From Erysipelotrichaceae bacterium (GTDB taxonomy: Bacteria > Bacillota_I > Bacilli_A > ML615J-28 > CAG-313), in NCBI GenBank assembly GCA_015059015.1, contig SVBG01000006.1, positions 62,001-126,000 on the forward strand: a stretch of DNA of 64,000 nucleotides, in the 5' to 3' direction. Below, piece after piece: positions 34,701 to 36,407 of the stretch (positions are counted from its first letter, which is position 1; each line of letters starts with the position of its first letter). Below the pieces are notes generated by a model. The model ran no database searches. It had not been told where the DNA came from and was given only the letters and a program-made list of their open reading frames with translations. The position numbers were made by a program, and so were the translations under genes.

Positions 34701-34798
34701 GTTACAAATAAAAATTATATACTTTAGAAAAATAATTAATTACTTTATACTATTGTGTTTTCACAACATGTATTCTCAAACTTTATTTTACATTTTCA

Positions 34799-34828
34799 TT
34801 GAATAATTGGGTCATTTCGTGATATAAT
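34799..34828 (+). promoter_or_regulatory. Promoter of the AlbA_2 regulator gene
   Basis: TTGAAT (34799-34804), an 18-bp spacer and TATAAT (34823-34828) preceded by TGA. The left arm of the inverted repeat fills the spacer. Confidence 0.6.
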
Positions 34829-34848
34829 ATTAATATAAATGACCCAAT
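34806..34848. promoter_or_regulatory. Inverted repeat flanking the -10 box, probable operator
   Basis: ATTGGGTCATTT (34806-34817) and AAATGACCCAAT (34837-34848) are perfect 12-bp inverted arms, centres 31 bp apart (about three helical turns), one between -35 and -10 and one just past the expected start. The right-arm sequence is repeated inside the coding region at 35946-36005. Confidence 0.75.
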
Positions 34849-34865
34849 AAAAAAGGAGAAATAAT

Positions 34866-36227
34866 ATGTATAGTGAGTCAAATAAGACTGAGTTAAAAAT
34901 AGAATTAATTGATAATGTGAAAAAAGAAATAATTGCTTTTTTAAATACTGATGGTGGTGTTATTTATGTTGGTGTTGATGACGATGGAAGTGTTGTTGGT
35001 ATATCAAATAGACAAGAAAGAGATTCATTAGAACTTAAATTGTCGAATTGGATTCAAGATGCTATTTATCCTATTCCTTCTTCATTAGTAAATTATTATT
35101 TTAATAAAGATAATGTTTTTGTTATAGAAGTATCAAAAGGTGATGATAAACCTTATTATCTTAAAGAAAAAGGACCAAAACCTAGCGGCGTGTTTAAACG
35201 TGTTGGTTCTAGTGTAAGAAAAGCTAATGATAGTGAAATATTATTAATGATTATGGAATCTAAGGATTATAGATTTGAAAGTGATATATCTGAAGAGCAA
35301 GATTTGACATTTAAATATTTTATACAAATTTGTGATGAAAATGATATTCAACATGAAGAAAGAAATCTTAAATCATTAGGATTATTAAACAAAGAAAATA
35401 AATATACTAATTTAGGCTTATTATTATCTGATCAATCACCCATAATAGTTAAATTTGCAAAATATGATAAAAATTTAAACTTTTTAGTAAAAAAAGAATT
35501 TAAAGGATCATTATTAAAATGTTTGGACCTAACTTTAGAGAATGCAACAAATTATAATGATATTTCAGCTATAATAGATAACACTTCGTGGAAAAGAATA
35601 GAAACAATTTCTTATCCAGGTGCTAGTTTACGTGAAGCTATTTTAAATGCATTTGCTCATGCTAATTATTTTATAAGGTCTAATATAAAAATTGAATTTT
35701 ATGAGGATAAAGTTAAAATTACTAATCCTGGTGGTATATTTCAAGCAACACTTGAGCAAATCTTTGACGGAGTACAAACTTACAGAAATCCCGGACTTGT
35801 GAATATTTTAAGTAAATTACAATATATAGAAAATTTTGGGACAGGAATACCAAGAATTCTACATGCTTATGAAAATAGTGTGAGACAACCAGAGTTTCTT
35901 CCTAGTGAAAGTTTTTTTATCCTAAAAATGCCAAATATGAATTTTGACCCAATAAATGACCCAATAAATGACCCAATAAATGACCCAATAAATGACCCAA
36001 TAAATCTTTCTAAAAAAGTTGAGTTATCAGATTTTGATTTAAGTATAGTAAGAATAATTAATGAAAAACCTGGGTTGAATGCGAAACAAATTTTAGAAGA
36101 ATTAACTCATATATTTAATAATGTAACGATTGATATGGTAAAAAATTCATTAAAAAGAAAATTAATAGATATATGTGAGTTTAGAGGATCTAGAAGAAAT
36201 GGTGGTTATTATTTAAAAAATAAATAA
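34866..36227 (+). CDS. AlbA_2/Schlafen-type ATP-binding regulator with DPIN repeat
   Basis: The 453-residue protein belongs to the COG2865-type group. It has an N-terminal AlbA_2 DNA-binding domain (about 1-125; NKTELKIELIDNVKKEIIAFLNT, GGVIYVGVDDDGSVVGI), a middle ATPase-like domain (about 245-350; LREAILNAFAHANY, ITNPGG, YIENFGTGIPRIL), five DPIN units (361-380) and a C-terminal winged helix (about 388-453). It is probably an autoregulating transcription factor. The DPIN linker is encoded by five identical 12-bp units that contain the operator sequence. It is a single-gene unit with AAAAGGAG before the ATG; no terminator is clear. Confidence 0.85.
   Translation: MYSESNKTELKIELIDNVKKEIIAFLNTDGGVIYVGVDDDGSVVGISNRQERDSLELKLSNWIQDAIYPIPSSLVNYYFNKDNVFVIEVSKGDDKPYYLKEKGPKPSGVFKRVGSSVRKANDSEILLMIMESKDYRFESDISEEQDLTFKYFIQICDENDIQHEERNLKSLGLLNKENKYTNLGLLLSDQSPIIVKFAKYDKNLNFLVKKEFKGSLLKCLDLTLENATNYNDISAIIDNTSWKRIETISYPGASLREAILNAFAHANYFIRSNIKIEFYEDKVKITNPGGIFQATLEQIFDGVQTYRNPGLVNILSKLQYIENFGTGIPRILHAYENSVRQPEFLPSESFFILKMPNMNFDPINDPINDPINDPINDPINLSKKVELSDFDLSIVRIINEKPGLNAKQILEELTHIFNNVTIDMVKNSLKRKLIDICEFRGSRRNGGYYLKNK
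35946..36005 (+). repeat. Five perfect 12-bp coding repeats identical to the operator half-site
   Basis: GACCCAATAAAT occurs five times head to tail. The junctions recreate AAATGACCCAAT, the exact 12-mer of the promoter inverted repeat, at least four times. All copies use the same codons for Asp-Pro-Ile-Asn. Confidence 0.9.
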
Positions 36228-36407
36228 ACCTCAAAACGTTATGTTAAATCTTGCTTTAACTCAAAGTAAAGAATTTATATCTGAGGTTATAACTTTTGAT
36301 AAATTTAATTTTTATAAGTAGAGACTTTTCATCAGTCTCACACCAGCATAGCAGAATTTATAAGAAATAATCTTCAATTTAATTAAACATTAAATTTATT
36401 TGTCGTA

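Follow-up and report, generated by a model that had tools for sequence, protein, structure and literature searches.

A tandem linker-coding repeat appears to carry the operator of its own gene in a Schlafen-like regulator family of gut bacteria

What usually constrains a stretch of coding DNA is its protein product. Here we describe a regulator family of gut bacteria whose gene, judging from sequence comparisons, appears to carry its own putative binding sites within itself: a 60-bp stretch would be both peptide and operator, and the protein's binding specificity seems to shape its own linker, which this stretch encodes. We consider it probable that this family writes its operator into the gene as its own disordered linker, that this arrangement has repeatedly arisen or been rewritten across reading frames, pitches and strands, and that a change of specificity entails a matched rewriting of the promoter, the linker DNA and the recognition helix. 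The starting point was a gene in a window of 64,000 nucleotides (the whole stretch of DNA that was analysed; Erysipelotrichaceae bacterium, assembly GCA_015059015.1, contig SVBG01000006.1, positions 62,001 to 126,000, forward strand), in which all positions below are counted.

Results

The regulator and its domains

The gene (Table 1) belongs to a genome of 2.01 Mb and its product has the architecture of COG2865-like regulators, with an SLFN_AlbA_2 domain (75.5 bits, against a curated cut-off of 25.3), a HATPase_c_4 domain (65.3 bits, cut-off 26) and a C-terminal winged helix, which was recognized by the structure model, Foldseek and profile matches, and for which DNA binding is predicted. The model of residues 379-453 has a pLDDT of 89.7 and the element order H-H-H-E-E. 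The winged helices of MarR, MecI/BlaI and Fur were matched by Foldseek (none with E < 0.001), BlaI was found at E 0.003 by a profile built from 13 relatives, and Pfam HTH_24 was detected in six of 13 relatives. The full-length model matches 3lmm, SLFN and SAMD9 domains and GHKL kinases. The (DPIN)5 linker is predicted to be disordered and, as expected, residues 365-385 (within and just past the linker) have pLDDT values below 50.

Table 1. Features of the regulator gene and its promoter (window positions)
Feature	Position	Strand	Basis or remark
Unit common to the window gene and L012/L132 (promoter, gene, ~50 bp)	34769..36274	+	blastn, one block, 89.6% nt identity
Possible -35 hexamer TTGAAT	34799..34804	+	predicted from sequence; 18 nt upstream of -10
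Upstream operator arm ATTGGGTCATTT (TGACCCAAT on minus strand)	34806..34817	-	arm kept and co-varying in relatives
Extended -10 element TGATATAAT, between the arms	34820..34828	+	predicted from sequence
Downstream operator arm AAATGACCCAAT	34837..34848	+	at or just past predicted transcription start; inside 17-nt exact linker match
Ribosome-binding site AGGAGA	34854..34859	+	read from sequence
Regulator gene, 453 aa	34866..36227	+	SLFN_AlbA_2 / HATPase_c_4 / winged-helix architecture
SLFN_AlbA_2 domain, aa 4-121	34875..35228	+	Pfam PF04326, E 6.4e-21; Foldseek matches to SLFN and SAMD9 structures
HATPase_c_4 domain, aa 272-353	35679..35924	+	Pfam PF13749, E 5e-18; Foldseek matches to GHKL kinases
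Five GACCCAATAAAT units encoding the (DPIN)5 linker	35946..36005	+	TGACCCAAT starts at 35945, 35957, 35969, 35981, 35993
C-terminal winged helix, about aa 389-453; predicted operator reader	36030..36224	+	model, Foldseek, profile, Pfam
Putative recognition helix, aa 422-432	36129..36161	+	helix H422-432 in model; substitutions track operator type (alignment A2)

The same word in promoter and linker

The two promoter arms, ATTGGGTCATTT and AAATGACCCAAT, form a perfect 12-nt inverted repeat with a 19-nt gap, bracketing the extended -10 element TGATATAAT. The inverted repeat was rejected as evidence by itself, because the window holds 12 matches to a perfect 12-nt inverted repeat with a gap of up to 30 (some of them overlapping or terminator-like); nor are inverted repeats enriched in the promoters of the family (33 versus 26 of 155). 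The unusual feature is the sharing of this repeat with the coding array. The promoter operator recurs in the gene's own coding region, as in the intragenic operator of C.Kpn2I, and does so as five tandem 12-nt units, an arrangement of sites within the own gene also known from lambda O. The first-pass annotation had described both a perfect 12-mer inverted repeat around the -10 box and the regeneration of that 12-mer at least four times by five DPIN units; both descriptions were borne out, with the exact 12-mer AAATGACCCAAT present four times in the linker DNA (at 35954, 35966, 35978 and 35990) and the 9-mer TGACCCAAT five times. The longest exact match between promoter and linker is 17 nt long (ATAAATGACCCAATAAA).

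In the whole 2.01-Mb genome, GACCCAATAAAT has five copies, all in the linker of this gene, and TGACCCAAT exactly seven, namely the two inverted promoter arms and the five linker copies, against a chance expectation of about eight. As a separate observation, TGACCCAAT is absent outside the regulator gene and its promoter, where about eight copies would be expected, which may hint at avoidance of stray sites (one word in one genome).

Co-variation of promoter and linker

A scan of GTDB genomes with an alignment of relatives as the query gave 80 loci. Among relatives the promoter inverted repeat changes between TGACCCA, TGACCAAAT, TGACGAAAT, TGACTCGAT and TCGCCAAAT, and the linker repeat generally follows; within the clade of the window gene, the linker unit agrees with the promoter for five operator types, and the tree requires several switches between them, one to another reading frame. 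TGACCC arms precede nine genes whose linkers are DPIN, DPVN, DPIT or similar. DQIN linkers (GACCAAATAAAT) are paired with TGACCAAAT arms in L049, L050, L140 and L141, the downstream arm being one base off (TGACTAAAT) in the DQIN-type genes L143, L147 and L152, and the DEIN linker (GACGAAATAAAT) is paired with TGACGAAAT arms in L145 and L153 (one base off in L142). The DSIN linker (GACTCGATAAAT) of L144 goes with TGACTCGATAAAT in its promoter, a 16-nt exact match equalled by none of 155 other promoters, and the SPNK linker (TCGCCAAATAAA) of L047 goes with a promoter carrying the same TCGCCAAATAAA. Nearly all complete pairs of the clade have their arm centres about 36-38 bp from each other. One gene has an operator and no array (L148), and another has neither (L048).

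In a maximum-likelihood tree of the linker-free part of the regulator, some of whose branches are weakly supported, the TGACCC genes form one group and TGACCAAAT is scattered, with GAAA placed twice and TCGA and TCGCCAAA once each. The SPNK gene nests inside the DQIN/DEIN group, yet its operator is read in another frame; the peptide has thus been replaced and the identity between linker and promoter DNA kept. The recognition helix varies as well. TGACCC and TGACCAAA are two of the operator types among the clade regulators; residue 426 is K in the aligned TGACCC genes and R in the TGACCAA and TGACGAA genes, the TCGCC gene has Y427, and L144 and L145 have E428. These substitutions fit a winged helix acting as the operator reader, in a correlation that follows the tree and is therefore not independent of it.

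Two clade genes, L149 and L155 (Holdemanella biformis DSM 3989), are not open in one frame, and L149 has a single CCGCCAAATAAA where its relative L047 has three units.

Constraint on the DNA of the linker

Among 22 clade genes, aspartate is encoded by GAC in 81 of 82 linker codons (157 of 615, or 26%, elsewhere in the same genes) and isoleucine by ATA in 67 of 68 (253 of 816, or 31%, elsewhere). Both exceptions belong to the fourth, non-operator residue of the unit in L139, and at operator positions the clade linkers show no variation in their Asp and Ile codons; in L139 itself the peptides vary (DPLI, DPID, DPIL, DPLN) around a constant TGACCCA. The units of one gene are not independent in these counts, because slippage homogenises them, but protein identity among the clade genes is mostly 50-70%, which leaves codon choice outside the linker free to vary. 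In 20 chosen matched genes, 49 of 51 exact coding copies of the promoter operator fall in the linker, at 74-90% of gene length, and the other two at the start of L145 and L153, where the start codon is probably mis-called. All coding copies of the clade are in one orientation. The idea, put forward from the first look at the window, that the linker DNA itself is under selection is strongly supported by the co-variation, the invariant operator codons and the out-of-frame and opposite-strand arrays described below, and the suggested variation of repeat number in steps of four residues is indeed seen, with two to six units in the clade and with four in L012 against five here.

Other words, frames and strands

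Similar sharing occurs in other lineages. A second subfamily, whose members are 47-74% identical to L036, has the linkers GTCGGTTTA, GTCGGTGTA and GTCCGTTTG alongside promoters with the same word or one very close to it; L100 (the same gene as L269) has 23 nt common to linker and promoter, and the exact sharing in L260 and L264 is not significant. In L058 the repeat (ATGTCACCAA) is 10 nt long and is translated in two frames (MSPNVTK); it matches three promoter copies exactly over 21 nt. The 11-nt linker repeats of L125 lie on the strand opposite to its promoter copies, and its 70-73% identical relatives L303, L304 and L305 keep both linker and promoter copies with different peptides (TTRKTTTIQPEN, TSRKTTKKQPEN and TTRKTTTTQPEN), each linker-promoter match in this kin being better than those to 156 unrelated promoters. 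In L058, L100 and L125 the promoter copies are upstream of the -10 element, covering the -35 region.

Several further arrays were observed in passing. Iteron-like arrays of AATGTGGGTATA with 11/12-nt spacing, each unique in its genome, lie upstream of L013 (ten copies, G004:C5:14848-14961) and L015 (four copies, G003:C11:27969-28015), and the linker of the paralogues L009 and L020 is AATGTGGGTGTA, nearly identical to that upstream repeat. L307 and L046 have an 11-nt linker repeat (CATCCAAGAAA) that is read in each of the three frames in turn, giving HPRNIQETSKK with a period of 33 nt, and that lacks a counterpart in the promoter; L046 is truncated within this array. The linker units of L276, L309, L313 and L044/L306, such as ACCACCCAAGAA, resemble the L125 operator CAACCAGAAAA, which is missing from their own promoters, so that intragenic sites perhaps outlast promoter sites.

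Extent within the family

The family set comprises 162 genes (90% clustering), 62 of which have linker arrays. With the promoters of distant relatives as control and with thresholds set after the first cases, 17 of the 62 arrays match their own promoter at p<=0.02, where about one would be expected. When one blind representative was taken per protein cluster (thresholds again post hoc), 10 of 35 matched at 60% identity (P ~1e-9), 4 of 19 at 50% (P 5e-4) and 2 of 7 at 40% (P 0.008). No own-promoter match beyond chance was seen in 41 of the 62 arrays, and comparison of these 41 with relatives' promoters gave no enrichment either (22 matches, versus 31 for downstream, 21 for reversed and 14.5 for shuffled sequences). 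The proposition that every tandem linker of the family is an operator copy was consequently rejected: the tandem linker is common in the family and only partly an operator copy. The check proposed in the first-pass annotation, whether the repeat unit of AlbA_2 relatives matches their own promoters, thus comes out positively for this clade and several other lineages and negatively for the remainder of the family.

Of 155 genes, 36 have promoter direct repeats with a pitch of about 9-12 nt, compared with 7 of 155 downstream controls, and given this excess many family members seem to use operator arrays of near-helical pitch. Strong promoter direct repeats (9-12 nt pitch) with no matching linker array were observed in L065, L071, L074, L089, L090, L094, L112 and L128.

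Mobility and genomic context

A gene 96% identical to that of the window is found in another genus of the same family (L012, the same as L132), where the flanks are unrelated and the neighbours (by reading, a MATE-like transporter and FeoAB-like genes) differ from those in the window. In most other relatives homology begins about 40-90 nt upstream of the start codon and stops near the stop codon, the exceptions with longer homology being near-identical pairs such as L137/L138 and L145/L153. As the shared homology is confined to promoter and gene, the gene travels with its operator. No conserved neighbours were seen by eye, the neighbours being ordinary-looking. A phage or plasmid origin was rejected, all matches being below 60% identity; of two scans of viral contigs, one contained no relative and the other a single 23% relative. 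A defence system was likewise rejected, since the PADLOC matches were weak and due to a domain shared with pAgo fusions.

Discussion

Proposed mechanism and alternatives

With somewhat less assurance than for the arrangement itself, we lean towards tight negative autoregulation, in which the winged helix would bind both the promoter and the gene-body sites, acting by promoter block plus an elongation roadblock or looping. The regulator would be a sensor, in which the disordered linker connects the C-terminal winged helix with a Schlafen-type AlbA_2 domain and a GHKL-like ATPase fold. Its winged helix would bind half sites of the TGACCCAAT type, two inverted sites around the -10 box would block initiation, and the five sites in the linker DNA, bound by the same protein, would add a second layer of negative autoregulation through an elongation roadblock, through looping over about 1.1 kb back to the promoter, or through both. 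The linker may be the only part of the protein whose sequence is loose enough to accommodate operator copies, and when the specificity of the winged helix changes, the promoter and coding sites would be rewritten together. Placement of the sites around the -10 element (here) and over the -35 region (L058, L100, L125) would in both cases predict repression.

The genome-wide uniqueness, the codons and the co-variation speak for the array being made of binding sites, and they would do so equally if it were a decoy that titrates the protein, the five sites per gene copy set against two promoter sites defining a threshold and buffering gene dosage, with no roadblock or loop. The coding copies (two to six) usually exceed the promoter pair and no competing copies exist elsewhere in the genome, as such a decoy would have it; but a decoy could sit anywhere and needs no fixed orientation, whereas the coding copies of the clade all have the same one, and we regard this reading as unlikely.

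More doubtful still is an iteron-like role, in which promoter and linker arrays would nucleate a higher-order complex for, e.g., transfer or maintenance of the cassette and not for repression. The shift of gene and promoter between loci as a unit of about 1.5 kb, the near-helical pitch of the arrays with the ten upstream copies in L013, and the lambda O iterons inside the O gene (PMC3985674) are in keeping with it. Against it, Pfam and NCBIfam found no recombinase or replication-initiator family in the 453-aa protein, and hence no initiator domain like that of lambda O; there is no plasmid context, close phage or plasmid relatives are absent, the neighbours look ordinary, and the shared unit is explained by ordinary horizontal transfer.

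Just as doubtful is passive capture, that is, entry of the operator into the linker by recombination with the promoter and its functionless spread by slippage, with repeated gene conversion making it track the operator. Arrays are homogeneous and variable in copy number, and tandem linkers with no promoter match are common in the family, all of which would suit it; however, the conversions would have had to be repeated, always into the same linker and in differing frames and strands, and codons are held despite the divergence of the remaining gene (L139 keeps TGACCCA as its peptide varies).

Recognition at the RNA level, with the AlbA_2 domain binding UGACCCAAU in its own mRNA, both in the 5' leader and within the coding part, is very improbable: AlbA_2/Schlafen domains, including structures matched by Foldseek, do bind RNA, and the downstream arm and the linker copies share their orientation in the predicted transcript, but the upstream inverted arm precedes the predicted transcription start and still co-varies, and the promoter copies of L058, L100 and L125 are upstream of -10 and, in the L125 kin, on the opposite strand. 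That the repeat matters as a protein linker only, its likeness to the promoter being coincidental, is hardly credible in view of the co-variation, the codon invariance and the permutation tests, common as four-residue tandem linkers with no promoter match are in the family.

Relation to known systems

The roadblock part of the autoregulation proposed above has a precedent in C.Kpn2I, an autoregulatory DNA-binding protein whose binding site inside its own coding region acts as a transcription roadblock (PMC6237814), the mechanism that, by analogy, we propose here. C.Kpn2I is an unrelated small restriction-modification controller, and its reported site is not a linker-forming tandem array (PMC6237814); in the present family promoter and coding copies coexist and co-vary, and the roadblock is a prediction. 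Lambda O is likewise a DNA-binding protein with tandem sites in the middle of its own gene, the iterons of ori-lambda, but it is an unrelated protein serving replication initiation, described with no inverted operator over its own promoter (PMC3985674), whereas our regulator has neither an initiator domain nor a replicon context.

The only experimentally studied relative that we found is TrlG of Photorhabdus, which has the same two Pfam domains (SLFN_AlbA_2 and HATPase_c_4) and in which mutations relieve growth restriction at 36 C; it differs in belonging to an operon of three genes that has a separate regulator, and no operator-encoding linker is described in the available portion of that report (PMC7554251). 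By analogy, this growth restriction suggests a reason for tight control.

BlaI/MecI, MarR and Fur resemble the present regulator in the fold of its C-terminal domain and in a probable operator inverted repeat over the promoter, and differ in being stand-alone small repressors. We know of no operator arrays in the coding regions of these repressors. A search of the open-access literature brought up no description of operator arrays serving as a protein linker and co-varying with the promoter, and it is these, and not self-sites in the gene body as such (already known from C.Kpn2I and lambda O), that we rate as the new part.

If the preferred reading is correct, the DNA target of such a regulator could be read from its amino acids (DPIN standing for TGACCCAAT and DQIN for TGACCAAAT), and the family would offer a natural collection of matched switches in specificity with which to study winged-helix recognition, a clean test of intragenic autoregulation by synonymous recoding, and a testable handle on a widespread and little-studied Schlafen-like family, at least one member of which (TrlG) restricts growth.

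Five further paralogues are present in the genome of the window gene (G000), at C11:1873, C7:208946, C3:200945, C3:376716 and C14:95114; the tandem linkers of these paralogues differ (DQEI/DQET, VGLN, VGVN, TKND and QQDT), and in the C11 copy an in-frame TAA lies close to the start.
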